A stretch of DNA of 64,000 bases, taken from the NCBI RefSeq assembly GCF_032854445.1, contig NC_088303.1, forward strand, positions 12,469,501 to 12,533,500. The letters run 5' to 3'. A program made the position numbers and the translations under genes. How positions within the stretch are numbered: position 1 is the first letter of the stretch; every line of letters starts with the position of its first letter. The notes under the pieces were generated by a model. It saw only the letters and a list, made by a program, of their open reading frames with translations. It had not been told where the DNA came from and did no database searches. This DNA comes from Liolophura sinensis. Taxonomy: Eukaryota; Mollusca; Polyplacophora; Chitonida; Chitonidae. Of this stretch, positions 366 to 47,200 are shown piece after piece.

Positions 366-3300
366 GAATTTGTCTTGGGAGACTGAGGGCCACAGTTTGT
401 CTGTTAAGTCTATACATGTAAGTATGCACAAGTGCTAGTAAAACTTATTCTGTTGTCGCTGTGTGTAAGAATGATTTAGTGTGGGTAAAACTTAATCACA
501 GTTTATCCGTTGTGAAACTTATTGAAAGTGAAACTTATTCACAGTTTGTCCTGTGTCTCTACATGTACATGTGTAAGTCTGATGTAGTGTGAGTAAGACT
601 TATTCACAGTTTGTCCTGTGTCTCTACGTGTAAATGTGTAAGTCTGATGTAGTGTGAGTAAGACTTATTCACAGTTTGTCCTGTGTCTCTGCGTGTAAAT
701 GTGTAAGTCTGATGTAGTGTGAGTAAGGCTTATTCACAGTTTGTCCTGTGTCTCTGCGTGTACATGTGTAAGTCTGATGTAGTGTGAGTGAGGCTTATTC
801 ACAGTGTGTCCTGTGCCTCTGTGTGTACATGTGTAAGTCTGATGTAGTGTGGTTAAGACTTATTCACAGCTTATCCTGTGTCTGTACATGTACATGTGTA
901 AGTCTGATGTAGTGTGAGTAAGGCTTATTCACAGCTTATCCTGTGTCTCTACATGTACATGTGTAAGTCTGATGTAGTGTGAGTAAGGCTTATTCACAGT
1001 TTGTCCTGTGTCTCTGTGTGTACATGTGTAAGTCTGATGTAGTGTGAGTGAGGCTTATTCACAGTTTGTCCTGTGTCTCTGTGTGTACATGTGTAAGTCT
1101 GATGTAGTGTGAGTAAGGCTTATTCACAGCTTATCCTGTGTCTCTACATGTACATGTGTAAGTCTGATGTAGTGTGAGTAAGACTTATTCACAGTTTGTC
1201 CTGTGTCTCTACATGTACATGTGTAAGTCTGATGTAGTGTGAGTAAGGCTTATTCACAGCTTACCCTGTGTCTCTACATGTACATGTGTAAGTCTGATGT
1301 AGTGTAAGGCTTATTCACAGTTTGTCCTGTGTCTTTGCGTGTACATGTGTAAGTCTGATGTAGTGTGAGTGAGGCTTATTCACAGTTTGTCCTGTGTCTC
1401 TGTGTGTACATGTGTAAGTCTGATGTAGTGTGAGTAAGACTTATTCACAGTTTGTCCTGTGTCTGTACATGTACATGTGTAAGTCTGATGTAGTGTGAGT
1501 AAGGCTTATTCACAGTTTGTCCTGTGTCTCTGTGTACATGTGTAAGTCTGATGTAGTGTGAGTAAGACTTATTCACAGTTTGTCCTGTGTCTCTATGTGT
1601 ACATGTGTAAGTCTGATGTAGTGTGAGTAAGACTTATTCACAGTTTGTCCTGTGTCTCTACATGTACATGTGTAAGTCTGATGTAGTGTGATTAAGACTT
1701 ATTCACAGTGTGTCCTGTGTCTCTACGTGTAAATGTGTAAGTCTGATGAAGTGTGAGTGAGGCTTATTCACAGTTTGTCCTGTGTCTCTATGTGTACATG
1801 TGTAAGTTTAATGTAGTGTGAGTAAGACTTATTCACAGTTTGTCCTGTGTCTCTGTGTGTACATGTGTAAGTCTGATGTAGTGTGAGTAAGGCTTATTCA
1901 CAGTTTGTCCTGTGTCTGTACATGTACATGTGTAAGTTTGATGTAGTGTGAGTAAGGCTTATTCACAGCTTATCCTGTGTCTCTACATGTACATGTGTAA
2001 GTCTGATGTAGTGTGAGTAAGGCTTATTCACAGTTTGTCCTGTGTCTCTATGTGTACATGTGTGAGTCTGATGTAGTGTGATTAAGGCTTATTCACAGTT
2101 TGTCCTGTGTCTCTGCGTGTACATGTGTAAGTCTGATGTAGTGTGAGTGAGGCTTATTCACAGTTTGTCCTGTGTCTCTGCCTGTACATGTGTAAGTCTG
2201 ATGTAGTGTGGTTAAGACTTATTCACAGCTTATCCTGTGTCTCTACATGTACATGTGTAAGTCTGATGTAGTGTGAGTAAGGTTTATTCACAGTTTGTCC
2301 TGTGTCTCTGCGTGTAAATGTGTAAGTCTGATGTAGTGTGAGTAAGGTTTATTCACAGTTTGTCCTGTGTCTCTGTGTGTACATGTGTAGGTCAGATGTA
2401 GTGTGAGTGAGGCTTATTCACAGTTTGTCCCCTGTCTCTACACGTAAGTCTGATTTTGTTTAAGTAAAACTGCAGATGTATTATTGTACGTACATATTAT
2501 TTTTATCTTTTGACAGAAAGATAGAAAAAAAAAACAACAGTTGTAAATGTACCTTCATTATGTGGGACAAGTTTAAAGTCATGTTATGTAATGATATTTA
2601 GATGCCTGTAATGACTGTGTGCTGTAAAGGGGTTCTGTCTGAAAGGATTCATGGAATGTAAGGATTTTACTTCCTGCTATATAGGATGTGCCCAAACTAG
2701 ATCTGTAAAGGTTAAACTGACTCCAAACTACATGTAAGGCCCCAGAAATCACTCCAGGGATCAATATGTTGGTTGCAGTCTTGAAGTCCATGGTGACAGG
2801 TGTTACATAAATTATGTGGAGGTGTGCAGGGGTTGGGGTAGTAGCTGGTGGGATCGGTGGGGGTGGGGGTGGTGGTTTTATGTTCTGAAGGTCAGATGGC
2901 TTGGGGGGCTAAGCTGGTGCATTAAGAGTATAAAGTGGATTGTTAGTGTCTTTTGTGAAACTTTCTGACCACTGGCGGGAAATAGAGGGGCAGTGTAAGG
3001 TATAAAATAGCCCAGCATGATATTTTTCATCCAGCTTTAATGTTTAGTAATACAGTTTGAGAATGTCCTCCAAGCTTACGTCCTAAATCTTCCAAGCCTA
3101 CGTTCTAAATTCTCCAAGCCTAAATCTTCCAAGCAAAATTCTCCAAGCCTAAATCTTCCAAGCAAAATTCTCCAAGCCTAAATTCTCCAAGCCTAAATTT
3201 TCCAAGCCTAAATCCTCCGTCTACAGGAGGACTGATAAAGAGGTCTCAGACTCAAAACCATGTCCTACTCCTTTGGTTGCGGATGATCTTTTTAGGAGGG

Positions 3301-6300
3301 GGGGGGAGGCGGGGAGGAGGCTGGTCACTTTTCTCTCACATTTTATATAAGGCTAGTTGCAGCTATATACATGTAAAAGTTTAGTGACTATAGCATGAAA
3401 CAGCAATCAATCAAAAAAACTTGATAATTAAAGTACAGGAAATGTCTGATTTTATGATTTTCTTGAGATATGAACACTGGTCACAAGTGCTACATAAAGG
3501 TTATATGGAGGTGTATGGTTGAATGTACATGTTTGTTTGGTTTTCTCTTTTCAGCTAGAATCCTACGATGACATTGTCCTGGTTCTTGCTCTGTATGATG
3601 TGTGTCGTTTCAGCTTTGTAGCCATGATGGAGGTAACAAAGTCTGTAAGTACCATCATACGTTATATAACATGTTTCAGCTGTTATTCATAAAGACAAAT
3701 ATTACATGCATATGCTTGACTTCATTGTGATTTTGATAGATTTAGATTGAAGATATTTATTACAAAGAACTTAAAGGTTTAACTAAAGGTGATTTTGCTG
3801 TGCATGATGTATTTAATGGTTTGTGAGCTGGCTTGTGATATTTGCAGGTGTTTGGACGACAGGTGAGGGATGCCAGCCTATCTCAGGGCCTACTTATCAC
3901 TATGCACATCACAGGTGTTGTGAAAAATCTACAGTTTTACTGACATCCTTAGCAAGGTAATAATGTTATTGTTCATGAACACCTGTAGGTTGGTGTAAAT
4001 TGCATTAGGCAGCAGTTGAATATGCCTACCAACAGTTTAGTCCACATGCTGTCTATGAGGTATACACCAAGGCAGTGTTCGCCTGTTCTATGACTAGTGA
4101 TGGCAGACTCTGTAGGATATAGCTGCAGTACACTAGTGCCGCATTTTAACACGGAACACCATTAAAAGAATAACATACATATAAGCCTTGTACATCACTA
4201 CAAGTCAAGTTCACAAGGTTAGTGGGGGAAATTTTACAAACACATGGAAACATGACCCCATATATCATTGACACGTGCAGATATCCTCACTTGGAAACAT
4301 GACCCCATGCACCATAGACATGTTCATAGATCACCACCTGGAAGCATGACCCCTTACACCATAGACATATATGTAGATATCCCCACCTGGAAACATGACC
4401 CCATATAGCACTGACACGTGTACAGATATCCTCACCTGGAAACATGACCCCATATAGCACTGACACGTGTACAGATATCCTCACCTGGAAACATGACCCC
4501 CATATAGCACTGACACGTGTACAGATATCCTCACCTGGAAACATGACCCCCATATAGCACTGACATGTGTACAGATATCCTCACCTGGAAACATGACCCC
4601 ACATAAGATAGTCCTACATGTATAATCCAATCAATTTTCTGTTTAATAGCACAAGGTACATCATGCGGAGGACAATGAGGTTAACATACTTCTGAGAGGT
4701 AGGCCACTGTTTCTGAGCTCCAAGGCTCACTACAATTTGGTTTGACTTAAAACATAGATATATAAACACTATTTCATGTATCATCGTTTTTTTTCCCCTT
4801 CCTCAGTTTGAATTGACCTGCAGGTAGCACAGCTATTAAACATGAGGTAAATGTAGATCTGATCAGTCAACAAAATAGATTTATACTTGTTACATTCATT
4901 GACTTGAAGTGTGTGAGAGTCATACATGGACTTGTCCTTTAAACAAACCGAGCTGGGTAATACCAAGGACTTTAAAAATGGTTCTTGTTGCTCATCGTTG
5001 AAAGGTTAGAGCAAGGAAACCTGACTGGTTGGTCTGGTGTAAGTATAGTGTGATAGGGTGAGATGTTGTTTGATTCCTTTGGCATGAAACCTCAGTGGTG
5101 GCAGCACTTTAGCGGCATGGACTGGCCCTGCGACTGCCACAAGAAGACACACTATTTGTACAGACGCCTAATGACTCCTCGTCATCATAAAATTGTTAAT
5201 TATGACATAAAAGCCCGACCCTACACACATACAGCCATACATCTGTTATAATAACAATTTGTGGGAGGATAAGGAGTCATTAGGTGTGTGTACAGAGGCA
5301 TGTAGTATCCATTTTTGTGGAAGAAGTGCTGCTGCCACTGAAATATCATGCCGAAGACATGTATCTATATATTTTAAACTCTATCACTATCTTTCTAATT
5401 TCAGGAGAACCACCTATTTTATTTGAGCTAAAATGTGCAGATCATCTCATAGAAATTGGGGGCTCCCCATGGCATTACCTGTACTCTCCTCCGCATCAGG
5501 AAGGTGTATTTCATGTGAAACACCTGGAGACACACACACAGGTGAGAGAGAAGAGTTGTAGAGGTCATGTGATAGCTATCTGTATCACCTTGTTACTACC
5601 AGTAATCTCCTCCACAGCAGGAAAGTGTATTTCATGTGAAACACCTGGAGACACACACAGGTCAGAGAGGAGTTGTAGAGGTCATGTGATAGCTATCTGT
5701 GTCACCTTGTTACTACCGGTAATCTCCTCCACATGAGGAAGGTGTATTTCATGTGAAACACCTGGAGACACACACACAGGTGAGAGAGAGGAGGTGTAGA
5801 GGTCATGTGATAGCTATCTGTGTTACCTTGTTACTACCCATACTCTCCTCCACATGAGGAAGGTGTATTTCATGTGAAACACCTGGAGACACACACACAG
5901 GTCAGAGAGAGGAGTTGTAGAGGTCATGTGATAGCTATCTGTGTCACCTTGTTACTACCAGTAATCTCCTCCACAGCAGGAAAGTGTATTTCATGTGAAA
6001 CACCTGGAGACACATGCATAGGTAACAGAGAGAAGGTGTAGAGGTCATGTGATAGCTATCTGTGTCACCCTTTTACTACTGGTACTCTCCTCCACATCAG
6101 GAAAGTATATTTCATGTGAAACACCTGGAGACAAACACACAGGTGAGAGAGAGGAGGTGTAGAGGTCATGTGATAACTATCTGTGCCACCCTATTGCTAT
6201 CTGTACTCTCCTCCACTTCAGGAAGGTGTATTTTATGTGACACTTCTGGAGACACACACACAGGTGAGAAAGAGGAGGTGTAGAGGTCATGTGATAGCTA

Positions 6301-9300
6301 TCTGTGTCACCTTGTTACTACCTGTACTCTCCTCCACATCAGGAAGGTATATTTCATGTGAAACACCTGGAGACACACACACAGGTGAGAGAGGAGGTGT
6401 AGAGGTCATGTGATAGCTATCTGTGTCACCTTGTTATTACCTGTACTCTTTCCACATGAGGAAGGTGTATTTCATGTGAAACACCTGGAGACACACACAC
6501 AGGTGAGAGAGAGGAAGTGTAGAGGTCATGTGATAGCTATCTGTGTCACCTTGTTACTACCTGTACTCTCCTCCACATCAGGAAGGTATATTTCATGTGA
6601 AACACCTGGAAACACACACACAGGTGAGAGAGAGGAGGTGTAGAGGTCATGTGATAGCTATCTATGTCACCTTGTTATTACATGTACTCTTTCCACATCA
6701 GGAAGGTGTATTTCATGTGAAACACCTGGAGACACGCACACAGGTGAGAGAGAGGAGGTGTAGAGGTCATGTGATAGCTATCTGTGTCACCCTGTTACTA
6801 CCTGTACTCTCCTCCACATGAGGAAGGTGTATTTCATGTGACACACCTGGAGACACACACACAGGTGAGATAAGATGAGGTGTAGAGGTCATGATCTATG
6901 GTCATCCTGATACCAGCTTGAGATCTTTTGTTCTTGTGTGGATGTCTTTTAAATGAAAGGCAAAGGAAACACTAAAATGAAGTATTTGTCAGTTGAAAGA
7001 TCATTAAACACTGTCCAGGAAAATAGTTTGATTTGTTTTTTTAGAATTTTTCTAAACGAGTAAAATATATGTAAAACATAGTATGCGATGGTGGTCTGTT
7101 GGGACCCACAGGATATCAGTGACATTCACAGCCATATTTTGGGCTTGAAATAGTTTGTCTCAAAGTCCATTTGATGACGGCATCCATAGCTCTAAATGTA
7201 GATGTATTTTGAATGAAGAAATCTAGCAATGTTTGTGTGTTAAGTTGATGTAACATCAGCAGTCCCAATGTCGTCAGAAAGGGCCACTGTTGAATCTAAA
7301 GTTTCAAATGTGATTGAATAGGTCAAAAGATTCTCAAAAAAGAAACCGAACTATTTTCTCAGACAGTATTTAATGTTCTTTTATCTGACATACATCATAC
7401 TAGTGCTTTCTTTGTCTTTAATCTATTATACAGATACCAAAGCACAAGTGAAGCGGGGTTTCACGCTGATAACAATTTCACTGGTTTTCTGGGAGCTGTT
7501 TCTACTTTCAGGCAAAGAATGGTATATTAGAGTTTGAATCATTTGGCCTAGAACCACATCGTGCTATATTCCACCCGGATGACTCTGGACGCATTATACA
7601 TATTGGAGATGGGACCATGAAGTAAGATTATAGTTAGGTTGTACAGTGATGTTAAGTTGGTGGTGTTCAGAGTGATGTCAAATTGAATGTCAGATGTGCG
7701 CAGATGGCTTTTCCTGTGCTATGTGAAACAACTTACTATTCCATTGAAGCAGTCCTTTTAAAACTTGGTAGATACATTGGTGTTCTGATATGATTGTAGG
7801 TTTTTTGTCTTTTTGATTTGTAAATTATAATTTTATTTTCTTGAATGACATACTTGATGATTAATTTTTGATGATAAATAGTGCAGACAGAAAGTCTGAT
7901 TTTAGGATTCTGAAATGAACTTTTTAGCATCAAGCAAGCTATGTTTTCCCAGGCACTCTCTGATGTCTTCATCACAAGTCGTACATCTGAACTTGTTTTT
8001 GTCTTCAGGGTGTACAGAATTGGCTGTTCTGGGAACAAATCACCATTTGTAGAGGAAAGCTTCACAATAACAGCCAGAAGGAGTCAGCCTAGTACACTGG
8101 TAACTTGACTTCCACAAGTAACATGTCAAAGTATCCTAAGTATGTCCATCAGATTTGTAAAGAGAACATTGGATTGGACATATCACAGCTGTTAAAACCA
8201 ATAATTTTACCTTTATGTCTGTTAAAGTTAGTTTTTTGAGATTAGCTTAAAAGAAAAGTGGGCATCACAAAATATACCACTTAAAACTATGCATAAATAT
8301 ACTTTCATTTATTTTTTAAAATTTTTGTGAAAAAAGCATTTGAATTCTAGGGTGGGCTTTATGGACCATACTATGGTTGGGACCTGTGACGTCACATGAA
8401 GTTCTTCCAACTCTAATTACGAATCATGAATGTTGGAATAAAACTTTAAGAACCTGGCCCTGGAATCACAAAGCAATCTGAGACTTAAGTCAAAAGTTTA
8501 ATCATTAAATTTGGTATGTTCCGTTTTGTTATTTTAGCTGAATTTTGTTGTACAACAACTTATCCAGAATGTATGTCAAGAAATATTTTGAGCTGGTTAC
8601 ACGAGAAATAACAAATTTAAAGCGATTTGAAATTTTGATGTAAGGGGCCTGACTCTATTGCTTGGTTACCATAAATTAAGTTGATGGCAGGAATTGATCA
8701 AAGAAGACAATAGTGAAGTTTTGAAGATCTTGCATGGTAAAATGGAAGACTAGGGGCCTAAGTGGCCTCACTGATCAGCGTACCAGCACGGCGCAGTAAC
8801 CTAGGAGCCTCTTACCAATGTGAATAAAGTAAATAAATAAAATGGAAGAAGAATACACTTAACTTAAATGTACATTTCCACTTTTCAGCTTTCGTTTCCA
8901 CAAGTCACAAAATCTGGACGTCGAGTAAAGAAAAGAGTGCAGCATGGTTACACTGAATCTGACACAATGGTAACATGATGAGTTTGCACACCCACATAGA
9001 ATACATGCATCTGTGGCCTAGTTTTGGTCAGAAACTTACAAAAATTATTTTAAGATCCCCTTTCAAAAAAATATTGAAAACCATATTTTCAAATAGTTTT
9101 TCACAGCCTTTTATAAAGTTTGTATCATTTTTCTGCTTTCTTCCCATTAATGATATGAAGATAAATCCTTTTAACGGTCTACCAGATTGTTTGACCTTGT
9201 AAATTTCATGAAAATAAATGATCTTGCAGGCTTGTCTTAAACACTAACCTTGCATTCTCTCTTCAAAAAACAAATGAACTGCACCAAAACTACCCAGAGT

Positions 9301-10940
9301 ATACGTGTTACCTATTTGACATTGTATTTTGTATGTGTACAGCACATAGAAGATGTTGATTATGAGAATGAGCTGGACGTGCTATGTGTGACCTCTGTCC
9401 AGCATGCAGAGACGCTGAAGAGACCTCAGGTTTTTACGGGATTCTACCACAACTGGACTGGTCAACTCCTCAAGGAGACAGTGCTGGAACAGCCCTGGGA
9501 GTCGGTAAGTGGTAAATAGTGGTTAAAATCATTGTTAGGTCTACCACAACCCAGGGAGTCAGTGAATGGTAACTAGTGATTGGAGAGTGGCTAAAATCAT
9601 GGTCAGGTCTACCACAACCCAGGGAGTCAGTGAATGGTAACTAGTGATTGGAGAGTGGCTAAAATCATGGTCAGGTCTACCACAACCCTTGGAGTCAGTG
9701 AATGGTAACTAGTGATTGGAGAGCGGCTAAAATCATGGTCAGGTCTATCACAACCCAGGGAGTCAGTGAGTGGTAAATAGTGGTGGGAGAGTGGCTAAAA
9801 TCATGGTCAGGTCTACCACAACCCAGGGAGTCAGTGAATGGTAAATAGTGATGGGAGAGTGGCTAAAATCATGGTCAGGTCTACCACAACCCAGGGAGTC
9901 AGTGAATGGTAACAAGTGATTGGAGAGTGGCTAAAATCATGGTCAGGTCACAACTGGACTAGTCAACTCCTCAAGGAGACAGTGGTGGAACAGCCCTGGG
10001 AGTCAGTAAGTGGTAAATAGTGGTTAAAATCATTGTTAGGTCTACCACAACCCAGGGAGTCAGTGAGTGGTAAATAGTGATGGGAGAGTGGCTAAAATCA
10101 TGGTCAGGTCTACCACAACCCAGGGAGTCAGTGAATGATAAATAGTGGTGGGAGAGTGGCTAAAATCATGGTCAGGTCTACCACAACCCTTGGAGTCAAT
10201 GAGTGGTAAATAGTGGTGGGAGAGTGGCTAAAATCATGGTCAGGTCTACCACAACCCAGGGAGTCAGTGAATGATAAATAGTGGTGGGAGAGTGGCTAAA
10301 ATCATGGTCAGGTCTACCACAACCCAGGGAGTCAGTGAGTGGTAAATAGTGGCGGGAGAGTGGCTAAAATCATGGTCAGGTCTACCACAACCCAGGGAGT
10401 CAGTGAATGGTAACTAGTGGTGGGAGAGTGGCTGAAATCATGGTCAGGTCTACCACAACCCTTACCACAACTTGCATTTTCAATATTAGTATTTGAAATT
10501 CGACATTACAACTATGTCTCATTGTGCTATGACGTTATCACCTTACATCAGTGGGGGCCTTTAACATTTTAACATGGGTGGGCATATACAGTATTGAAAA
10601 TTATCCACAATAGATCTCTTTTGTTTACTGAACGACCTTAAAAATCCATGGAACTAAATATATTTGGAATAAAAAGTGGCAGAGAGATAATATTATTTAT
10701 TGTATATACATATACTTGCCCATGTTAAACTGCACTTCCTACAACTGCTTCTATGTTTGTACTTTCACTTTTCAGTTTTATGAGCACCGTGTTGTTGTTG
10801 ACCTGGACACAATAGTGCAGACAATCAAACCAAGCTTGGGGCTCTTCAGGTGTGTGGTCTACCGACTGGTCAGAGCAGAAAGTGTTAGCACGGACACGGT
10901 AAACTGTGGTCTACAGATTGGTCAGGGCAGAAAGTGTTAG
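366..10940 (+). CDS. DCAF17: DCAF17-like protein (DDB1- and CUL4-associated factor 17), 5'-partial, multi-exon
   Basis: Ten exons with GT/AG borders and compatible phases: 366-417, 3555-3644, 3848-3956, 4650-4698 (least certain), 5405-5541, 7512-7621, 8009-8099, 8889-8969, 9343-9504, 10776-10898 (or read through to a TAG at 10938-10940). The translated blocks follow human DCAF17 in order: NLSWETEGHSLSVKS; LALYDVCRFSFVAMMEV; VFGRQVRDASLSQG; PPILFEL...IGGSPWHY; GVFHV; AKNGILEFES...FHPDDSGRIIHIG; KSGRRVKKRV; VDYENELDVLCV; FYEHRVVVDLDTIVQ...CVVYRLV. In vertebrates DCAF17 is a nuclear or nucleolar protein that binds DDB1 and is a presumed substrate receptor of CUL4 ubiquitin ligases; that role is from family knowledge. 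Upstream exons are outside the window. Exon 3 carries an apparent +1 A in A5 at 3923-3927: without it the tail reads IYSFTDILSK, as in the family, and the exon is 108 nt (phase 0). The 3' end is unresolved because a 52-bp array starts inside the last recognised exon. Confidence 0.85.
418..2445. repeat. 65-bp minisatellite seeded on a DCAF17 splice donor (about 30 copies)
   Basis: About 30 copies of a 65-bp unit (aagtctgatgtagtgtgag / taaggcttattcacagtttg / tcctgtgtctctacatgta, then catgtgt). The exon 366-417 ends CACAGTTTGTCTGTTAAG / TCTATACAT followed by GTAAGT, and each unit carries a diverged copy of this junction: cacagtttgtcc...acatgt, then GTAAGTCTG. The array therefore repeats the exon tail and the 5' splice site. 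Most units keep a perfect GTAAGT and an upstream ttattcacag that resembles a 3' splice site. Confidence 0.9.
2446..3058. other. Intronic sequence, no gene seen
   Basis: DCAF17 intron between the exons ending at 417 and starting at 3555. It contains an A-rich stretch near 2523-2533 and a G-rich stretch around 2820-2880. The 70-residue minus-strand ORF at 2579-2791 resembles no protein I recognise and has no exon-like borders. Confidence 0.6.
3059..3220. repeat. Short-period tandem repeat (tccaagcctaaattc)
   Basis: About ten imperfect copies of a unit of about 15-17 bp built on 'tccaagcctaaattc' and 'tccaagcaaaattc'. Intronic within DCAF17. Confidence 0.8.
4230..4612. repeat. Minisatellite, about 50-bp unit
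   Basis: Seven to eight copies of a unit of about 50 bp containing 'acagatatcctcacctgg' and 'aaacatgaccccatatagca'. It ends about 40 bp before the proposed small DCAF17 exon 4650-4698. The 88-residue minus-strand ORF across it is a by-product of the repeat. I see no similarity to a neighbouring exon, so this array differs from the donor-seeded ones. Confidence 0.85.
5470..6880 (+). repeat. 120-bp array containing 12 copies of a 42-nt AG...GT cassette from DCAF17
   Basis: Period is about 120 bp. Copy 1 is the tail of exon 5405-5541 (5500-5541). Further copies start at 5621, 5738, 5859, 5980, 6101, 6222, 6343, 6461, 6582, 6702 and 6823. Eleven of the 12 segments between the AG and the following GT are exactly 42 nt. 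The copy at 5621 is 40 nt; the copy at 5980 ends in an in-frame TAG. The rest translate in phase 0 as EGVFHVKHLETHTQ or close variants. Most are followed by GTGAGAG and preceded by a pyrimidine-rich 'ctctcctccacatcag'. The several 70-150-residue plus-strand ORFs here are read-through of these repeats. Confidence 0.92.
6890..7505. other. Intronic sequence, no gene seen
   Basis: Unique-looking AT-rich intron between the 120-bp array and the DCAF17 exon at 7512. No exon-like ORF or obvious repeat is visible. Confidence 0.55.
8739..8849 (+). mobile_element. Short SINE with 11-bp target-site duplication
   Basis: An 89-bp insert (8750-8838) with an 'aaataaataaaa'-type 3' tail. It is flanked by perfect copies of AAAATGGAAGA at 8739-8749 and 8839-8849. 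The body (ggcctaagtggcctcactga...aggagcctcttaccaatg) resembles the tRNA-type head of the larger SINEs in the window, joined directly to the tail. It sits in a DCAF17 intron. Confidence 0.75.
9488..10466. repeat. 68-bp minisatellite seeded on DCAF17 exon 9 donor, with partial exon duplication
   Basis: Units of about 68 bp ('aacccagggagtcagtgaat', 'ggtaactagtgattggagag', 'tggctaaaatcatggtcagg', then tctaccac), about 13-14 copies. The founder junction is ...CAGCCCTGGGAGTCG | GTAAGTGGTAAATAGTGG at 9504. Midway, around 9949-10100, a longer segment is copied again: it includes the last 57 or so coding bases of the exon (cacaactggactagtcaact...gggagtca) and the donor GTAAGT. The copy differs from the exon at a few bases. 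This implies a second, larger duplication of about 500 bp on top of the 68-bp array. Confidence 0.9.
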
Positions 10941-12165
10941 TACAGACACGGTAAACTGTGGTCTACAGACTGGTCAGGGCAGAAAGTGTTAGCACAGACA
11001 TGGTAAACTGTGGTCTACAGACTGGTCAGGGCGGAAGGCGTTAGCACAAACACGGTAAACTATGGTCTACAGACTGGTCAGGGCGGGAAGTGTTAGCACA
11101 GACACGGTAAACTGTGGTCCACAGACTTGTCAGGACAGAAAGTCTTAGTACAGACACGGTAAACCGTGGTCTACAGACTGGTCAGGGCAGAAAATGTTAG
11201 CACAGACACGGTAAACTGTGGTCTACAGACTGGTCAGGGCGGAAGGCGTTAGCACAGACACGGTAAACTGTGGTCTACAGACTGGTCAGGGCGGAAGGTG
11301 TTAGCACAGACACGGTAAACTGTGGTCTACAGACTGGTCAGGGCAGAAAGTGTTAGCACAGACATGGTAAACTGTGGTCTACAGACTGGTCAGGGCGTTA
11401 TGTGTTAGTACAGACAAGGTAAACTGTGGTCTACAAACTGGTCAGGGCAGAAAGTGTTAGCACAGACACGGTAAACTGTGGTCTACAGACTGGTAAGGGC
11501 AGAAAGTGTTAGCACAGACACGGTAAACTATGGTCTACAGACTGGTCAGGGCGGGAAGCGTTAGCACAGACACGGTAAACTGTGGTCCACAGACTTGTCA
11601 GGACAGAAAGTGTTAGCACAGACAGGGTAAACTGTGGTCTACAGACTGGTCAGGGCGGAAGGCGTTAGCACAGACACGGTAAACTATGGTCTACAGACTG
11701 GTCAGGGCGGGAAGCATTAGCACAGACACGGTAAACTGTGGTCCACAGACTTGTCAGGACAGAAAGTCTTAGTACAGACACGGTAAACCGTGGTCTACAG
11801 ACTGGTCAGGGCAGAAAGTGTTAGCACAGACACGGTAAACTGTGGTCTACAGACTGGTCAGGGCATAAAGTGTTAGCACAGACACGGTAAACTGTGGTCT
11901 ACAGACTGGTTAGGGCAGAAAGTGTTAGTACAGACACGGTAAACTGTGGTCTACAAACTGGTCAGGGCAGAAAGTGTTAGTACAGACATGGTAAACTGTG
12001 GTCTACAGACTGGTCAGGGCAGAAAGTGTTAGCACACACACGGTAAACTGTAGTCTACAGACTGGTCAGGGCAGAAAGTGTTAGTACAGACAAGGTAAAC
12101 TGTGGTCTACAGACTGGTCAGGGCAGAAAGTGTTAGCACAGACATGGCAGACTCTGGTGAATCTT
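10839..12165. repeat. 52-bp minisatellite seeded on the 3' end of DCAF17 exon 10
   Basis: About 25 copies of a 52-bp unit (actggtcagggcagaaagtg / ttagcacagacacggtaaac / tgtggtctacag). The first copy is the coding exon itself (gtctaccgactggtcagagc...acggacacg | gtaaac), so the unit is the last coding bases plus the first intron bases. Every unit carries a ctacag and a gtaaac, that is a possible acceptor and donor pair 34 nt apart. Read in the exon frame the segment stays open; unspliced read-through ends at the TAG at 10938-10940. Confidence 0.92.
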
Positions 12166-13179: not shown

Positions 13180-13441
13180 GGTTTGTTTATTTGATTGGTG
13201 TTTTTACACTGTACTCAAAAATATTTCACTTATATGAAGGCAGCCAACATTATGGTGGGAGGAAACTAAGCAGAACTTAGAGGAATCCCACAAACATCCA
13301 CAGGTTGCTGCGGATTTTTCAACATACGACTGAAGAGGAGGCCAGCAGCTGGACTGGAACTCACAGCGACCAAACTGGTGAGAGAATCCTGGGTCATTGC
13401 ACCATCCTGGCAGCTTACCCCTGCAGCCACAGTGGCCCCTG
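13180..13441 (-). mobile_element. tRNA-type SINE, diverged copy
   Basis: Minus-strand copy of the family best seen at 58107-58371. On the + strand it starts with the reverse-complement tail (tttatttgattggtgttttt), then tactcaaaaatatttcactt, attatggtgggaggaaacta, a central region, and a head-like segment around ggaactcacagcgacc. It is clearly more diverged than the copies at 27690 and 57519. Confidence 0.7.
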
Positions 13442-14493
13442 GCCATTGGTGTTTGATAGAACATTCGTCTCTTCAGAGACCAGTTGTTGGTTTCACATTC
13501 TCATGCCTGGGGCATTCTCTACACGTCATAAGCTTTATATATGTTGTTAAACTGATGTCTAAATGTCTGGAGTATCAGTGGAGGCCCATCGTGGTGGTCC
13601 TTTGGCCAGTGTTAATATATATGGAGGGTCAGCCCTACAGTGGCTTAGAATGCCTTTCATTCCAGAAATGTGTACAAACCAGAAATTTGATTGAAACATC
13701 TTCAATTTTGAAGAGGCAGATTTGATTGAATTTGAACTATTTTTTGAGAGTAGCATTATAGCTTTTTGAAACATCATTTATTTATTTGATTGGTGTTTTG
13801 CTTTAGAATCATTTTAACAATACAAGTGTTACAGGCATGAAGGTCATATTTACTTAGAGGCAATAAATTTGAACTAGTCTTGGTAAATAGACAAAATTTG
13901 ACTTGATCGGAAAATATGGAGTTTTTCACTGGTATAGCCTTATTAAATAGGGACCTGGTTCACCTCAAAATGAACCTGCAAAACTGATTTGAAATCTTAA
14001 CCTGAAGAGGTTTTAACTACTATAGCAATCATATCAAGCCCCATTTCAATGCTTTGATAAAATTCAACTACTCACAACATCAGTAGTTCAATTCATATGT
14101 TTATTAAATAGACGCATGTAAATGAAGATGTAAGTTATTTATTGTGCAAAACGGGAAACTCTGCAGGGAGAAACATGTTTTTATAACTTTATTCTTTATG
14201 CTCAAGACAAGAAATAAAGTCTTCATACATGTATGACTCATATCAGCGTTTGTCTGTCTGGTTTTTCTTGAAAGAATTTGAACTCGTTTTAACAAAACAA
14301 AAACATTATTTATCAAAAGATGGGGAAATGACACTACAAACAGTGAAGATTACATAAACATCTGTGAATACATAACTGTCACAGAGAATTTAAACATGTA
14401 ATGGACATAACGAACAGCCAGAATCTCGCATTTAGTAGTATTTTAACTGCTTTGGACAAGCCTTGTTAACAACCTTGCTTAGTCATAATTGTG

Positions 14494-24900: not shown

Positions 24901-27900
24901 TCGAACACGAGAAAATTTACTCCATTACAATCGAGCCACCATTGACCTTGTGACGTCACAGCGGTTCATTCCCGGCAGGCATGTCACACAGATAAAGGAG
25001 ACAATCACTATACCATTACAACTAATTTCGAGATTATTCCATGCCCAAGTGTGGCTTTGCGACTGCAGTAACAGAGCGCAGTGTATTGTAAAGTTATATA
25101 CATGTAAAGTTATATATGGCCTAAAAATGCCACAAATTAAGAAAATATGGACCAGCTCTCATCAAAAAAAACCCTTTGACTACGACTGACTCAATTGTAA
25201 TGTTGTGAGACTTCAGCTATGCCAACTAAAATAAAAGGCCAGTGGGCGAGGCTTATATTAATTATTATTAGGTAGTTATAAATTTAGCCATGTGGTAGCT
25301 TGAGGAAAAGCACACTACAGGTAGGCCTAATACCAGGATTTCTCAATGTTTTGCAAGGCTTTTCAATACATAATCCCGGCAGGTCTATATGGCATGACAT
25401 CACCAGACCAGTACCCCTCGCAGACAAAATAGGCAGGCAGTCCAACTTTAATGTTTGTTTTTTAAATGGAGATAGTTAAAATAATACTTTTTTAAATGCA
25501 GTTTACATACTAACATAGCAAAAATATTGTGTCTAGGGAACGTCTAGTATGAAAGTAAAGGCGTTGGGGTTCTCCTTTAACATGGCACTAATACATGGTG
25601 GTTCGTTTATTGCTGTTTGATGACTGGTCAAGAAGGTTTGATATTGATTTGCAGACAGTACCTTCCATTTTTTGGTCCCGCTCAACACAGCGTTAGTTCC
25701 CGTCCAGTTGTATGGGTCAATGTGGAGGCTTGAGCGAGAGTGAGCAGTCCCCCAGAGCATCATAGCATTCCAGGGAATCACTGACGGAGGGAACAGAGAA
25801 AAGAAATCCTCATTCAAATATTTCTGGAAAAGAAAACACGATGTTCACCAGCATAATATGTAGCAAAATGACACTGTGCCTCTTCTACACATCGAAAAAC
25901 GTCCACAATCATGATGCAGTAAACTCTTTCCACATACAAATGCTTTACAAATTATTGTTTTTTTCTTTCTTGTATTTCAACAAAGTGGGTAATATATCTA
26001 TATATATATATATATATATACACATACATACATATACTTTTCTCCCAGTGATACTAATTTACTGATTTTTACCACTATAAAACACTTCATCTCTATGACT
26101 GTGACATGTTCATGGGCCCAGAAAATCTTGAAAAAAGACACAGCCCTAAGAGACTGGACCGCAGAGGCCAGATTTGAAACCACAACCTCTGCCATGATTG
26201 GATACCTACACAATCACCAATATCTTTCCTCAGCTCTGGTCGAGTATGCAAGAACAATTCATCCTCTAAGTACGTCCACATCATTTCATCAGATTTGTGA
26301 ATGTTTTGGAGAAACAGAAACAGAGGTAGAGCAAGCCCTTTACCAGAATCCATTTTTCCCTGATGACAGATAAATGATACAATGCAATGAAACAGTGCTG
26401 AGGTCAACATGAAAAGTATAACTACCCTTTATTGCAGATGTTCTTAAAAACGTTTATTCTGCAGAAACGTTCAGCATGTTCAGCTTGTGAATCATGCAGT
26501 ACAGCTTGTTCAGCATTCCAAGATGCAGTACAGCTTATTCAGCATGTTCAACATTTCAGCATGCAGTACAGTTTGTTCAACATTCCTCCAAGCAGAAGAG
26601 CTTGTTCAGCATTCCTGCATGCAGAAAAGCTTGTTCAGCATGCAATACAGCGTGTTCAACAATTCAGCATGTCGTACAGCTTGTTTTGCATGCAATATGG
26701 CGTGTTTAACATGTCAACATAAAGTACAGCTTGCTTTAGCATACAGTACAATTTGTTCAGCACAGATATTGTTCAGCATGTTCAGTTTGTTTGGATGTTC
26801 AGTATTTTCAGCTTGCTCATCATATGTGCCTTTTTCAGTTTGTACAGCTTGTTCAACATGTTTGGCATATTCAGCATTTTCAGCTTGTTCATCACGTGTG
26901 ACTTTTTCAGTTTGTACAGCTTGTTCAATGTGTTTGGCATGTTCAGCATTTTCAGCTTGTTCATCATGTGTGACTTTTTCAGTTCGTACAGCTTGTTCAA
27001 CATGTTCAGCATTTTCAGCTTGTTCATCATGTGTGACTTTTTCAGTTTGTACAGCTTGTTCAATGTGTTTGGCATGTTCAGCATTTTCAGCTTGTTCACC
27101 ACGTGTGACTTTTTCAGTTTGTACAGCTTGTTCAACATGTTCAGCATTTTCAGTTTGTTCATCATGTGTGACTTTTTCAGTTTGTACAGCTTGTTCAACA
27201 TGTTTGGCATGTTCAGCATTTTCAGCTTGTTCATCATGTGTGACTTTTTCAGTTTGTACAGCTTGTTCAACGTGTTTGGCATGTTCAACATTTTCAGCTT
27301 GTTCATCATGTGTGACTTTTTCAGTTTGTACAGCTTGTTCAACATGTTCGGCATTTTCAGCCTGTTCATCATGTGTGGCTTTTTCAGTTTGTACAGCTTG
27401 TTCAACGTGTTTGGCATATTCAGCATTTTCAGCTTGTTCATCACGTGTGACTTTTTCAATCTGTACAGCTTGTTCAATGTGTTTGCATGTGCAGCATTTT
27501 CAGCATGTTCCACATGTTTGACTTATTCATCTTGTTCAGTTTATGCGCCGTTTTCAACTTGTTTAGCATATACAGCTTTTTCGGTAAACTTGAAGAGCCA
27601 CGTTCAGTGTTTTCAGCTTATTCAGCATATTTGGCTTGTACAGCATGTAAACTTGTAAAAACTTAACCTAATGTAAAAGTTACATTATTATGTTTATTTA
27701 TTTATTTATTTGATTGGTGTTTTATGCCGTACTCAAGAATATTTCACTTATACGACGGCGGCCAGCATTATGGTGGGAGGAAACCGGGCAGAGCCCGGGG
27801 GAAACCCACAACCATCCACAGGTTGCTGGCAGACCTTCCCACGTACGGCCGGAGAGGAAGCCAGCATGAGTTGGACTTGAACTCACAGCGACCCCTGTAG

Positions 27901-34925: not shown

Positions 34926-34980
34926 TAGTGGAATATTCTTGAGTCTGGCATAAAACACCAATCAAACAAATACATAAAAT
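34926..34980 (+). mobile_element. SINE 3'-tail fragment
   Basis: tagtggaatattcttgagtc / tggcataaaacaccaatcaa / acaaatacataaaa matches the last 55 bp of the tRNA-type SINE. Everything 5' of it is missing. Confidence 0.75.
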
Positions 34981-38200: not shown

Positions 38201-41200
38201 GAATTTTGGTTACGTATAGCTGAGGGGCCATTTCACACAGTGTTGTGGGACAGGTCTGTATCAGTTACTGACCACCATAGACATAAAATTCGTTAATTTA
38301 CAAGCCGTGTAATATTCAGCGATGGTATCCCAAGTTATGTTAGACAGTAGCATACCATCTCGATCCTGACTGCGTTAATCTCCCCAGTAGACCGTAGGCC
38401 TACATGTACTTAGACACACTGTTCAAATCATACAAATACATTTTTTGTTGTTCATTTTACTGTTTAGTCAGCCGTTTCTAAATAACAAATGTCAGAGTCA
38501 GGGAAAAATTCACAAGGGATGCCGAAGGTTGATGGGAATGAGAACAATGCTTAAAACTAATTAAATCGTATGATGTAATTTTTTCTCTCAAAGTTTATGA
38601 GAATTAAGGAATTTATATTTTGCTCCTTTGGCTTTCATGCATACAAGGGATGATTTTTTTCTTTTATAAATCACAGTAAAAGTATCGAAACGCCATGTTC
38701 AAATTGAGGTAATTTCTGTGACATCTTCGATAACTTGGTCAGCTCTTCGCTTAACTTGAAAGCCACCACAACAAAACTAAAGCATAAAATTCAGCTGAAG
38801 TTGAATGCCTAGACCAGCCTCTGTGATGCTTAGATTTATTTCCATTTGTTTCAGAATTGAGCCATTAATCTAGTTGTATAACAATCCTATTGTAATTTTG
38901 TAAATATTTAATAGGGGTCACAATCACAGACATAACCACTCTTGAGGCCACAGCCTGAACCAGGAATACCTTGGCCATGCACCTGCAGGCTACTTAAACT
39001 GGAAATGATATAGCAGGCTTACTGTATCAACAATTCAAGCAGTAGAAGAAATATCCTTCCCTTGTGTCCAATTTCCGAGAAGGCTATTCATCACTTGGTC
39101 TGAAGTCCACAACTTTTATCTGCCATAGCCTAAGCTACTGCTTTTACTATAATGCGGAAAATAACTTCAACATTAGAGAGCTACATAAAGTAAACGTGAC
39201 ATCACCTTGCTGTCGATAATGGAGACACGCTGGAGCTGTGACAAGATGAAGTTTCACAAAACTTTTACTAGGTTGAGAAAAATCGAACGAAATATTTACT
39301 GCCGGATTAATATACCATGAATGGCAGTCTTTCAGTGGATATTAACATTAGTAAGATGCTGATTTTAACCTGGATTAATACTTTCCTCCTTTGGACATTT
39401 TGTGAACACTGAAATTCAGGCTCAATGCAGAGAGTACTTGCTTCTGTTTCTACTTTATCGACACAAGAACAATTTTTGGACAACATGGTCAGAGTGAAAC
39501 AGAAAACTGGGCCAACAAGAGTAAGTTGATGCTGGACATGTATGGCAGACAGAACTGCCTTCCAAGACATTCTGAACATTCAACAAATTTATCATACTAG
39601 AATTTTTATCAACAGTAAGCGAAGCAATAATTATTACAAATGTTGTTGATACTAGTCAGATCCGATAACTGATAACTGATTAAAGGTGCGCTGTGAGAAG
39701 TAAAGAGGCGAACGTAGAACTTATGATTTTCAATACTATACAATAGTGACAGCTGGGATTCTCAGATCACCTATTTAAAATAAATACACAGCAGCTGCAT
39801 TGGTGAGAGGTTCCTGTGTCCTTGTGCTGCACTGGCACGCTAACCACTTTGGCCACAGTGGTTCCCTTCATTTTGATGTCCCTGGTGTATAGATCTTTTA
39901 TAATGTTACCTTGCATTATGTTGGAAATGGACAAAGCTAGTTGCTACTAAACTACTGTCCAGTTATCTGAATATTTGTATTTATTGTCTGGTACATGTAT
40001 GTGCAGGAAATCATTGTTTTGTAATCTGTTTGTGGGATTTGTGATTAAGGATGATGATGCTCATGGTGGTTTTCTTGTGTACCAGGTTGAGAGCCCTGTC
40101 TGACGGCAACAGTGTGGGCACCCCGCCCCCATCACCAGCAGGCCCGGCAAAGTACAAACTAGCAGAGCATCGTTACGGCAGAGAAGAAATGTTAGCCTTG
40201 TTTGTGCCAAACACAAAGATGCCAGATGGTCTCAAAGACTTTCCTTTTATAGCCTTGGAGAAGGCACAAGCCCCACTGGCCATAGTTCCTGTAACAGAAG
40301 AGGAGCAGGTAGGTTTGCTCAGTGTTTGAGATAAGCAACTCTGTGTACCAAGCTTCGAACTATTTCATGCGGAATATTGAAATTGCACTAGTATGACATA
40401 GCAGTTATGTGTTCATTTTCATTGCCAGTAGAAACAAGAAATAACACTACCTTTTTCTGACTTATCTGATAAAATGGCACCACCGTGTGAAAGGTAAACT
40501 AAGGGGAGTTACCACAATTCAGGCATCTGATTGGTCCGTCCACCCGGGATAATTTATCGCATTTGCTAAATGAGAGGCAGTACAGCCTCAAGCATCATAT
40601 TTTTTCTGTATACATGTAAGGCTTCTGTCACATGTGCCCATTGATAACATGGCTTGCTGACTTTGTAAGAGTCAACTTTCCATGCCTTCGTTTTCAAAAT
40701 GATTCAGAAACTAACAACATGTGGATAAACTTCTCATGGCTTTGAGACAGTTAAATTGCACACCCTTGCGAATTGAATCTAGTGACTTTCTAGCAGTTTA
40801 CATAAGGCAGGTACCTTCTCTCAGCTTAACCAATGTTCCTAGCCATGCCCTGTGCTCTTCTTCTCATCGTGGCATCTGTTTCGACCATGCAACATCAAAG
40901 CGCCCATGTAAAACAAACACATCTTGGCTGAAGTACTGGTTTTAATTAAAAAAAGAAAGCTTCCCATGATGTTGTTTTTTTGTGATAAATTTGTTATAAC
41001 AGTATGGTTTGTGGGCCTACAGCCTGATATTTCTTCTTGAGGATGTATGTACAAGTAACACATTTCAGGCTGTAAAACGGATATTATCAGAAATATATAA
41101 ACAATGGCATAATACAGATTAAAATTAAGTTTAGTTTGTAAAATATATTTTAACTCAATACAGAATCCAAATTGGTTGGTAAATTCTTTAAAACTCAATT

Positions 41201-44200
41201 TAGTAAAAAAAACTCAGTTTTTGAGTTTGGTTTTGTATGAATCCCTGGGTACTTAACAAAAGTTTTGTGGTTTACTGCTGGCACTGGTTTTCTCAATCCA
41301 TAGACTTGGCCTCCATCATTTAAGTAAAAAATTATTGAGCATGGAAAACACAAGTCAATTTCAGCAAAAGTAGTGGGATTTTGACCAAGCTCCCTATTTC
41401 CATGAATCATGATGGTGCACGTAAAAAGGTTAAAAAACACATCACATGTGGGTAATGTAATCATACAGGTAAGAGTGGCTAATGGCTATCACATGTGGGG
41501 GAAATGTAATCATACAGGTAGGCTAATGGCTGAATTGTGTTCTTGTTGTCAGCGTATTATGTCGCAGTCAGTCAACAGTGCAGCTGCGTATCGGATGACA
41601 GGGCGGGGTGCCCCTCCACTGAGAGGGCGGGGTGGGCCAGAACGAGGACGGGGACGAGGTAAGACTTTGGTAAATGAGGGAAAACACAGAAACAACTTCT
41701 TGTTAATGCTTCAAGTTAGCATTGCATATTATACATGTTTAGCTGGGCATTCTCTAGTCATTCAGCATTTTATCTTACTGTCAGCTTTTGGAATTAAGAG
41801 AGTTGTTAATTGAAGACCAATTAAGTGCAGGTTGTATTGTGATGGTTTTTTTATTGCAGGCCGTGGTCGTGGTGAGGTATACTTACAGAGGGGGATGTCA
41901 TATGATGATACTGACGGGTTTGGTCGACCTCGCCCTGCCAGAGGAGATGCTTGGGAAGACGGGTGAGTGGATCTCAACTCAGCTGGAAGGCCTGGTGGAT
42001 AGATTCTCACTTTATATATGCACTTAACAGGCATTTGAATCTTCAACTGCTGTTTAAATTGACATACATTCTTTCTTGTTTTAGTAATTGTGTTCCAAAT
42101 TATGTGATGAAAATTTGACCCTGTGTGGTAGCTTAAACATAGCGAAGACAAATCTGATCTTTTTTTTGTTGATCATGCCTGGTATGTGTTCCAGAGGCTT
42201 AAAAAGATACGAAAGGCGCTTTGAGGACACAAGCGCCATTTCCCCACGCAAAGAGTACAATCGTTCACTAAGCAGTGACAACTGGCGAGACAAGACTGAG
42301 CGAGAGGAGGATGACGAAGGAGACTGGAGAAGGGCGGGTCCCAGAGATAAGTGGGGTGGGTCCAGTTATCCTACTAGCCAGGAGGAGTTTTTACTACCAC
42401 TGTTGCATACATGTAAAATGTATGTCTGGAGGCGGGTGGGTCCCAGAGATAAGAGAGTGGGTCCCAGAGACAAATGGGGTGGGTCCAGTTATCCATTTCC
42501 TCAGGGAAAGTTGTAGTTTCACTGTTATGTACGTGTAAAAGGTATGTCTGGAGGCGGGTGGGTCCCAGAGATAAGTGGAGTGGGTCAAGTTATCCTGCTG
42601 GCCAGGAGAAGTTGTAATGTCACTGTTATGTACATGTAAAATGTATGTCTAGAGGAGGATTGGTCCCAGAAATAAATTATCCTGTTCCTCAGGAGGAGTT
42701 GTAATGTCACTGTTATGTACATGTAAAATGTATGTCTGGAGGCGGGTGGGTCCCAGAAATAAATGGGTTGGGTCCAGTTATCCTGTTCCTCAGGAGGAGT
42801 TGTAATGTCACTGTAATGTACATGTAAAATGTGCATCTGGAGGAGGATGAGTTCCAGAGATTATTGTGTGAGTCCAGCTATCCTGCCACATTGTGGTTAG
42901 TATTAGTGTACCACAGGTACAACATTCTGACACGAGCCCATTCTCTGTTTGATAAGTATATTTCTAGCCTTATACAGAAAGATCCCTAGCATTTCCAAAA
43001 TATGAATCCATAATCCATCACTCCATCTATAAATATGAAGACAGTTTGAGTGAAGACAATTTGTTTATATAGTCTTTCTGATCTCAGGGTCTCGTGGCAA
43101 CTGGAGAGAACCAGGCCGCCCTACCTCTGAGTTTGAGCGCGGCAAGTCAAATGGAGGCCTTCCTGAACGGGGTGGGTTTGACAGGGCACGAGTTTATCGG
43201 CGAAGCAAGAGTGGCGAGTCGTGGGACGAAGAAGGTAATTTGTTGAATAGAACTTGGTGATTGGTAATAGTAAGTAGTAACTAGCGCATTGTTCTATGCC
43301 GCAGGTATATTTTTGTTAACTGGTCTTATAGTAGTAACTTCCATTCAGAAAAATTAAAACAGTACAGTGTTAAAAGATACATTCTGATTCAAAATGGTGA
43401 GGATATATATAACGTTCATCTATAAACATTTTACATTGATGTTACAAGCATATGATATTTCAAGGACTTCTTTCTATATACACTTTTGAAAAAATAACAT
43501 TTCTCATGAAACCATTAAGATTTATTCAGCTTGGGAATTGTTTAAATCGGTGTTTCATAAATTGTGTTCAGGGCTGTCCTTTTATATAGAAGTAAGTTGA
43601 GGAATCATAGAATGTTGATTTCTCTCTGTAAAGGCTATAGGTGCATACTAAGAGCTAGTTTGCTGTGTTGTAGACGTGTTGCCAGAGTGGAGTATGGCAG
43701 ACACAGACGATCTGGATAATGTGGGTACATTTGATGCCAGTGGGGCATTTGTCTCTGTTAAAGTGAGTATTGCTTTATTGAGTGTTGAGCTGAATAAGTT
43801 AAGGCCATAGGAAAAGTGCACAAATTTCCCAGCCTTCCCCTTTTGAGAGGTGTCTGAAACCGAGAAATAAAAGGAACCAGACCACATTTACCTACATCAC
43901 TAGTTGCCTTATCTACAGTGTAGCCTCGATAGCGTGCCACATTGGGGACAAGTTCCTGAGCGCGTTCTAGGCTACCTCACGCTATAAGAAATGACCTTGG
44001 TATCCAGTATATAGGCCTACAGTCTATCTTACAGGTCCTGATTTTGACATTGAAAGACGTTTTATTGATGTAAAATGTGTTTTGTCAAATGCTTTCTTGT
44101 TGTTGGTTTACTATAAACATGATATTTTTGTTACGTAGGGACTGAAGCATTTCAGCACCGTCAAGTCATATCCTGCGAAGCCAGATTCGTTTCGCATAAT

Positions 44201-47200
44201 CTCAGGCCTGAGTTGATCTGTAGAATGTGCTGTACATTTCCACAATCTGAACTCAAGTAACGTAGTTCCATCCACTTTATTTTTAAAGAAAAAAAAAAGC
44301 CACAGCACGTTTGGTATCCAATACGTCCATGTATGCTCGTATTGGAAATAACTCCTAGAACTGAGATCCCTCAGATTCAAAATGGCGGACTGCAGACTAC
44401 TGTCAACCTGATCATGTCCGCGTTATAGCTGAAAAACAAAACAAAAAAATAATGTTCACCATTTTAATGTATATCATGCTAAATCAATGTATTAAATGAA
44501 GGAAAGCAGGAAAAAATTAAGAAGTCATTGTTAATTTTTAGTTGCGTTCATCTCCACTCTCGCATGTCAGCATGCCCGTAAACCAAATCTCACTCCCTGC
44601 AGTTTAACCCCTCGCAGCCATTCAGTAATTTGATTAAAGTGATAAGCATTTACTGAAAGTGTACAAATATCACTCCCTTTATGAGGTATGCCTTTCACAG
44701 TGAGCAAAATGTGTTCTGCGTTGCAGACGAACACACACACACACACACACACACACGCACGCAAAAGTAAGGCTGCAACAACTGCAATCGCACGGGCATT
44801 TGAAATCAAACTCTCGCGCAAAGAAAATGTAACCAGTTACAACCTCTTCCATTATTCATAGAAAAATCCATTTCTTTTTGCTTATATGCAGGCTCGACAT
44901 AAGGGTGAATGGCACATATATCCACATTACTGTGTGAAGATAATGAGCCCTAATGTACAAGCTATATGTTTTCTTCATTTTGAAAATCAGGTTTGATCAT
45001 GTTTGAAAGAAATCTCATACAGAAAATTGTCATGTATATGTATTGATTTTAATAATATTCTTTGATTGATTTTAATGTGGTAATAGTGTTAATAAAAATA
45101 ATAATTATTAAATTACAGTCGATATTCTGAAGTCATTTCTCACACAAACTCCTCAGAGGTGTGAACATTTATTTGGGATTGTGAAACGAAACATTTCATT
45201 GGTCATGCAATTTTCGCTGAGCCAATCATAGGTCACACTAAATATAAGTAGTCTACCCTCACCGACGCAAGCAGCCATTTTCATTTTACCGTCATCGGTG
45301 ATCAGTTCTTTTTCCATTTAAATCAGCATAAAGTTTGTACGAATTTTCCTGGAAGTAAAATAAATTTAGCTGTTTTCAACCTACTGAAAGCACATTGTAC
45401 TTACCAACACGCGAAATTATCGTTCCCCTGGAGTTTACATGGTGATCGAAAATTTGTTCTTCTGAATTTACGTTCAGCACATAATATTCAAAAGCCATGA
45501 ATGCACTACTTGCTTCAGACAAGTTTGGGTGTACTTAAAATTATAACCTGCCCTGAAAACGATCAAATATAGTTGATGATTGAGAAAAAGGCAATAAGAA
45601 ACTTGGAATAGTCACTTCGAGACAAGGATTCTGGGACAATCACAGAAGAACAAAAAAGGTTAAACTTTGTCACATTAACTAATTCTTATACAATAAAACT
45701 TTCGAATTTGAAGGTAGTTCTAATTTTAGTATCACCCTTAGAGGGCAACATTTAACTGGAAATTTCATTGAAGGCCGAACTATGGAACTATTTTGTACTG
45801 GTACTCATTTACGAAAGGCTCGATATCTGTATTCTTTATGTTCGTGTCACTAATTTACATGAAATTACTCTCGCACATTTGTGAATGCCTTTGTAAAATG
45901 TAACATCAGTACTAAGACTGAAAGAAAGGCATGGTCAAATTTGTAAGTGATATGAACACATCTGGAAATGGTGCGATTTCCATCAGGCCCTCATTCCTGA
46001 AAATGAAAACAGTGGCTAAATGGTATTTTGTAACAAAATGGCATCCAAACGATCCAGTCATGGTGTTTTCAAAAAATCTAATGCTTTAACTCAAGAGCCC
46101 TAAATTGGAAAAGTAGCTCGCCTATTGCGCAGATTGGTAAATTTTTGGGGTGATTTTTAATGGCTAACTGTTGAGAGGGTGGCTGTGTGGTGGCTGGCGA
46201 TTTTATATCTGCATGGTAGGCATTTGCATGCAAATAATACTTTTTTGTCCCAGTGTTGATATATTTTATGTTCTTAGTGGATGGGGCAACTAGTGTTCAA
46301 GGTAAATATGGCCTGGTTCTTTTTATTTCTCTGTTTGATATCCCTCTCAAAATGGGAGGGCTGGAAATTTTGTGCACTTTACTATGACCTTAAATGTCTG
46401 CCAGTCATAAATTATCTGTGGAGAAATATATATATATGTATACGTCACTGATGAAAATAATGCAGCCGATAGATTGTTCTTGACATGTAGATAACATGGT
46501 TTGTGTAATGGAAAATTGGATATTTTTCAATCAGTTTACTTGTCTAGTGTCTTAGGGAGGATGGTATGGTGCATGTTACTGAAGTAATTTGAATAGTGGA
46601 TGTTGAAAGTGAGAGATCACTGAAGAGATGATAACTGGTGTAGCATAGTAAAGAATACCCTGTGTTTTTGGCTGCTAGGAAGCACAGCGTAGGAAGAAGG
46701 AGCGGTCAGAGGGCTCGGCCAAGGACCGAGGGGACATGGAAACTGCGGAGAGAAAAGACGGAGAGAACAACGGTCACAGCCCTAAAGCGGGTCAGGTAAG
46801 AAAGACGGGGAGGACAACGGTCACAGCCTTAAAGCGGGTCAGGTAAGGTCTGTTGACCGTCACCAGGGCATGGTCTCATGAAAAACTTAATATGTCTTTT
46901 AAAAAAAAAAAAAACATGTTCTGCTTTTCGGAAAGGTGAGGAGAGGGTGATGTTTTGAGAACTAAAAATTTGTTGCAAGATTGATCAGGTTAACACTACA
47001 TGTTTGATTCTCTGCCTGTGCAGGCGAAGCTGTAGTTGCCTGATTGCTGGTATAAGTGGAGCTGCACAGTTTACTCATGTGGAAAGTGTAGATCTGACAA
47101 AAACCTGAGTGAGAATATATCTCAACCCATTTGGTCTTCTTATCCTTTCAGCCTTCCATATCGGATAAATCCAAGAAGGATGACCCTGAAATCATTAGAG

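Follow-up and report, generated by a model that had tools for sequence, protein, structure and literature searches.

Minisatellites that straddle exon-intron junctions are widespread in the genome of the chiton Liolophura sinensis. They were analysed in a stretch of 64,000 nucleotides (NC_088303.1:12469501-12533500, here called the window), which contains the DCAF17 gene, and in a sample of exons from the whole assembly (609,464,459 bases, 632 contigs). About 7% of the sampled splice donors (about one in fourteen) and 3% of the acceptors lay within such an array. We read these arrays, with a probability of about 0.6, as minisatellites of the "mirage" type, which arise by a local duplication with breakpoints unrelated to the splice site and are then expanded. 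According to passages of its original report (PMC11068029), the assembly was first published under the name Liolophura japonica; the name was changed to L. sinensis by a published correction (PMC12441733).

All six arrays that the initial annotation had named in the window were detected by Tandem Repeats Finder (TRF). Each had been described as copying the tail of a coding exon together with its donor. The last 40 exon bases, donor excluded, were aligned to the following array, with 500 letter shuffles for comparison. The copying was far beyond the shuffles at the donors 5542 (score 40, best shuffle 16), 9505 (37, best shuffle 12), 46796 (34, best shuffle 12) and 42356 (26, best shuffle 16), while at 418 the likeness was marginal (16, best shuffle 17; about 0.006). 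Fifteen other donors of the two genes concerned, listed by hand, scored 7-11 and always stayed below the best of 200 shuffles. One of these genes is DCAF17 (+ strand; Pfam PF15802, 6.7e-70); the other, the third gene of the window and also on the + strand, gave no match in Pfam and is presumably GIGYF-like.

The features, all on the + strand, are arranged as follows. The DCAF17 exon at 5405..5541, ending in ...GVFHVKHLETHTQ at donor 5542 (CAG/gtgaga), is overlapped by a 121-bp minisatellite of ∼12 copies at 5460..6902 (TRF 5476-6893, 121 x 11.8), which starts ∼66-82 bp within the exon. The exon at 9343..9504, ending in ...LEQPWES at donor 9505 (TCG/gtaagt), runs into a 68-bp minisatellite of ∼13 copies at 9440..10472 (TRF 9518-10461, 68 x 13.5). 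The array with the weak exon-tail likeness, a 65-bp minisatellite of ∼29 copies at 418..2473 (TRF 534-2441, 65 bp x 29.4), follows the DCAF17 exon at 366..417 (acceptor 365/366, donor CAT/gtaagt at 418), whose open frame is in phase with that of the following exon (LESYDD), where the Pfam match begins. In the GIGYF-like gene, an irregular minisatellite with units of ∼100 bp at 42319..42889 (TRF 42336-42885, several rows with periods including 101-122) starts in the tail of the exon at 42195..42355. The donor of this exon, 42356 (GGG/gtgggt), is weak; it was picked by reading frame as the best phase-compatible one. At 46754..46847, exon tail and donor 46796 (CAG/gtaaga) are present in a 47-bp duplication of 2.0 copies (TRF 47 x 2.0), the first copy of which reaches 5 bp into the intron. 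The lag-47 matching run is one unit long, so that no extra microhomology is visible at the breakpoints.

The repeat units are local in the three cases tested. The 121-bp unit had at least 12 matches in the genome, all in its own array and its own exon tail, and the 52-bp unit of the array described below had at least 21, all local. For the first array, a 28-base segment was searched against the assembly, and 7 of 7 exact matches lay inside the window. Within the 68-bp array, a copy of the exon tail at ∼9949-10004 exceeded the neighbouring copies in length, which points to a second event, a larger duplication or exchange.

The sixth array, at 10847-12163 (52-bp x 25; TRF 10853-12158, 52 x 25.1), had been taken as a donor case with its splice site at 10899, and the exon-tail score there was 34 (best shuffle 15). 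The Pfam PF15802 model, however, reaches its final position (474/474) at ...CVVYRL, and the last copy contains an in-frame stop. Therefore the array is probably located in the terminal coding exon of DCAF17 (10776..12163, +), within the last codons, and 10899 is probably no donor. The reading frame of the first copy runs into the second, where it meets a stop; the last copy gives VYRLVRAESVSTDMADSGESS-stop in frame, and the same coding tail is found in both the first and the last copy; VYRLVRAESVSTDMADSGESS-stop is the probable old C-terminus. The alternative of a spliced C-terminus (TWQTLVNL...) seems less likely than a terminal exon. Human DCAF17, too, ends shortly past the matching segment. 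A comparison of DCAF17 with the PDB gave no match. If the array is not spliced out, DCAF17 would end in ...STDTVNCGLQIGQGRKC and not in ...STDMADSGESS.

For the genome-wide sample, the exon matches of three Pfam families were picked regardless of repeats (myosin head 81, kinesin 132, SNF2 58). Before repeats were looked at, 8 of the 132 kinesin and 5 of the 58 SNF2 matches were dropped (at least 3 stops), as were the final 10 of the 130 regions left after merging. The remaining 239 exons (81, 114 and 44) were taken with flanks of 350-500 bp and yielded 221 distinct donors and 221 acceptors; splice sites were scored with general weight tables, and donor calls scoring 3 or less and acceptor calls scoring -1 or less were discarded. 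Because the flanks stop 350-500 bp from the match, arrays beginning far out are under-detected. At 18 of the 221 donors and at 7 acceptors, the flank held a further copy of the junction segment with a score of at least 20; cross-comparison controls reached this score in 0 of 1753 donor and 0 of 1755 acceptor comparisons. The cases with this score include L087, an in-array copy counted on both sides, and L130, whose donor was misplaced; both were rejected after inspection.

In the TRF listing, 17 donors and 7 acceptors were straddled. After looking at the arrays, the donors of L072, L170 and L060 were shifted by one unit, the donor of L130 was moved into the intron and the array end on the acceptor side of L174 was reset. 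With these changes 16 of 220 donors were straddled (95% interval 4.2-11.5%). In 14 of them, counted strictly, the array contains at least 15 exon bases (L072, L039, L050, L035, L086, L090, L059, L076, L139, L145, L079, L030, L029 and L005), and in L060 and L170 fewer than 15. L023, where an array ∼100 bp downstream holds a short copy of the donor, was excluded from the 16. Straddled acceptors amounted to 7 of 221 (95% interval 1.3-6.4%), with 15-48 exon bases in the array at L011, L056, L159 and L068 and ∼10 at L174, L032 and L140. The straddled donors come from 9 contigs and from three gene families unrelated to one another, which supports the suggestion of the initial annotation as far as the occurrence of such arrays across the genome is concerned. 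L035 is a two-copy case of 104 bp, and together with the duplication at 46754 it shows a starting step of the process. Introns were in general dense in minisatellites, with 87 TRF rows (period of at least 8, overlaps included) in ∼86 kb around the myosin exons (L001-L055).

The sampled rate of 16/220 corresponds to ∼2.6 straddled donors expected among 36, and the Poisson chance of at least 5 is ∼0.12. The window, with four clear donors and one weak one, is thus not clearly unusual for its genome; these five replace the six cases in about 37 exons that had looked far above chance in the initial annotation.

Whether junctions are hit more often than expected was assessed with a uniform-start model, in which array starts were counted from one unit inside the exon to +150, +200 or +250. 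For donors, 8.7, 7.3 and 6.6 cases were expected and 16 were seen (P 0.005, 0.0008 and 0.0004), while for acceptors 6.5, 5.5 and 5.4 were expected and 7 seen (P 0.3-0.5). Donors are thus modestly, about twofold, above the uniform-start expectation and acceptors are not. In the comparison with exon 5' ends, which the initial annotation had suggested, the excess is on the donor side; acceptors are straddled too. Mere chance overlap, in which intronic minisatellites are numerous, start uniformly and cross junctions in a fixed fraction of cases, is in our view an unlikely explanation of the whole. It agrees with the acceptor counts and with the abundance of arrays near exons (33 on the donor side and 27 on the acceptor side; period of at least 20, -120 to +150). 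It does not account for the donor excess, which is seen despite the constraint on exon sequence.

A motif test across the genome and contig C1 gave no clear donor excess. Three occurrences of CAGGTAAGT in succession, spaced 29-54 bp apart, were searched genome-wide, with the reversed motif as control; 85+166 matches were found against 104+49 for the reversed motif, counts that are dominated by long arrays. Among the matches listed for contig C1, 10 loci counted by hand had the donor motif and 6 the reversed one, which is in line with chance given the 2.0-fold higher frequency of the single motif on this contig (9807 against 4854). Clusters of at least three among the first 100 sites listed, also counted by hand, point the same way (∼5/46 independent sites with the donor motif, 4/60 with the reversed motif). 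Starting from the arrays, however, speaks against chance. Here, 9 of the 10 donor-motif loci of contig C1 plus 2 further arrays were compared with 9 of the 13 control loci listed. An upstream exon candidate with a positive coding score was found for 5 of 11 donor-motif arrays and for 0 of 9 controls, of which 8 were testable since L188 is array throughout and lacks array-free upstream sequence; the candidate at L182 stops 15 bp short of the TRF start. Six donor-motif candidates were submitted to Pfam and one was confirmed (L181, GH31, 7e-13), while two control exon candidates gave nothing above the cut-off. We regard this comparison as supporting evidence only. Separately, the unit of a control-motif array at NC_088303.1:14546132-14547237 was seen to include CAGGTAAGA as well, which makes it another donor-like array.

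The anatomy of the arrays bears on a further explanation, in which the repeats are seeded by a mechanism that acts on splice donors or on transcription at these sites (R-loops or break-prone exon ends, for example). In the straddled donors the TRF periods were 26-170 bp and the arrays started ∼6-115 bases inside the exon (after repositioning). Such targeting would fit the excess at donors with none at acceptors, the higher score of straddled donors (8.7 v 7.5, P 0.035) and the concentration of array starts at -50 to -10 (11 per 40 bp, compared with 20 per 120 bp at +10 to +130; before repositioning). Against this, the distance between unit end and donor varies from array to array, with no fixed register, so that the splice site itself does not seem to be recognised. 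Moreover, acceptors are straddled as well, the contig C1 loci stood at 10 to 6 among the matches listed, and the skew of G over C, a sign of R-loops, did not differ between straddling arrays and array-free introns (P 0.22). We consider targeting of the donors themselves, which the initial annotation had raised, to be improbable.

Decoy donors were counted in 20 arrays, of which 15 came from the sample and 5 from the window; the row of L072 was uninformative, its donor register being off. GT was kept in 124 of 131 in-array copies, in agreement with the earlier proposal that the arrays leave decoy donors, which are putative and recognised by their sequence. The copies scoring at least as high as the authentic donor numbered 54. 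On average, the GT-keeping copies lay 1.6 bits below the authentic donor (Wilcoxon 0.0006), as would be expected if selection acts mainly on the first donor while the others drift. With regard to composition, the group means of array G+C were 0.38-0.45, compared with 0.363 in array-free introns (P 2e-11), and exon edges were near 0.46, above the introns on both sides.

The mirage reading, which we prefer, would involve two steps. A local tandem duplication would copy tens to ∼150 bp straddling the exon end, and slippage or unequal exchange would then enlarge the duplicated stretch. Such arrays may persist because the copy next to the exon body keeps the exon end and the donor intact, so that the mature message need not change. 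Acceptor copies may be riskier and perhaps removed more often, since splicing may use an upstream AG before the proper one; this would account for the surplus of donor over acceptor cases. Arrays may also start or persist more easily at exon edges because of the higher G+C there. Several points weigh against this account. The direct contrast between donors and acceptors reached only P 0.031 (14 v 4) or 0.093 (16 v 7), four donors were repositioned and the strict and short cases called by eye, and the motif-based counts were without clear donor excess. It is assumed that the first donor is the one in use. G+C changes by a similar step at both kinds of splice site, so that composition alone gives no donor excess, and the exon tails of straddled donors did not differ in G+C from the others (0.483 v 0.464, P 0.19).

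The initial annotation had further proposed that the arrays represent ongoing intron gain by tandem duplication. This appears very improbable. Reading the sequence beyond the arrays of the five window donor cases, the next acceptors were found at ∼3555, 7512, 10776, 43088 and 47152, in each case outside the array. The arrays thus lie within introns older than themselves, and existing introns were lengthened and none made. In the AGGT model of intron gain both splice sites come from the duplicated segment, which is not the case behind 418, 5542, 9505, 42356 and 46796. What could be said for intron gain is that the units contain donor-like sites and that the terminal DCAF17 array, which interrupts coding sequence, could in principle be an intron (CG/gtaaac, AG in the last copy). 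The last copy of that array, however, stays in the old frame until it reaches a stop of its own, and no splice was found that restores the DCAF17 frame exactly. A precedent exists in the potato RdRp gene, for which passages of PMC4974935 describe an intron gained by one duplication crossing an intron-exon boundary. The acceptor-straddling cases of the chiton have the same layout, and a new intron of the potato type is conceivable there. The chiton arrays resemble the potato case and the AGGT model in that the duplicated segment carries splice signals; they differ from the model in that the five window duplications lie in existing introns, with no new intron seen.

This kind of repeat is not new. 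Passages of PMC3087553 describe mirage minisatellites in the Adh3 gene and the globin genes BflGb6 and BflGb9 of amphioxus, with tandem units across the exon-intron boundary at either exon end, unit lengths of 10-72 and 150-160 bp and AG/GT kept in many copies; a model of intron gain is proposed there. Further traits of the mirage class are length polymorphism, somatic instability and undisturbed normal splicing. The chiton units likewise span the boundary (14-16/220 donors and 7/221 acceptors, plus the window cases), both 5' and 3' exon boundaries are hit (acceptors at L011, L056, L159 and L068), and many but not all copies keep the splice signal (124/131 GT). The chiton arrays differ in their host, in a rate obtained over 239 exons and not at single loci, and in an apparent bias of donors over acceptors. 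Among molluscs, a 27-bp minisatellite in intron 3 of an abalone TSSK1-like gene is described in passages of PMC6905558. It is similar in unit size and in its tandem, intronic arrangement, while the chiton units include coding exon and splice site and the passages on abalone are silent on exon sequence. No description of boundary-spanning minisatellites outside amphioxus was found in a literature search that is too limited to say much.

Other features of the window include a minus-strand gene with a Cupin_8/JmjC exon. One dispersed repeat is present in several copies on both strands (13207-13500, 27667-27897, 57484-57702 and 58058-58595); it is recognisable by its translation (..YGGRKPG..), the likeness having been judged by eye. 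The open frame at 51861-52265 resembles a fragment of a piggyBac-type transposase.

Passages of PMC3087553 describe mirages at a few lancelet loci, and a donor rate of ∼7% has now been measured in a mollusc. This rate suggests a common route of intron growth and of the copying of exon ends. The arrays are natural experiments on the choice of the correct donor by the spliceosome when as many as 16 or more similar copies are on offer. With them, the birth of introns from tandem duplication can be tested in a single genome and its relatives. It is possible, though we hold it only tentatively, that minisatellites are born preferentially at exon ends, such that an array of near-consensus decoys follows about one in fourteen donors and some thousands of introns across the genome have been lengthened outward from the exon, with a supply of splice sites and exon fragments. 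If so, the chiton genome would hold a standing supply from which introns or exons could arise.

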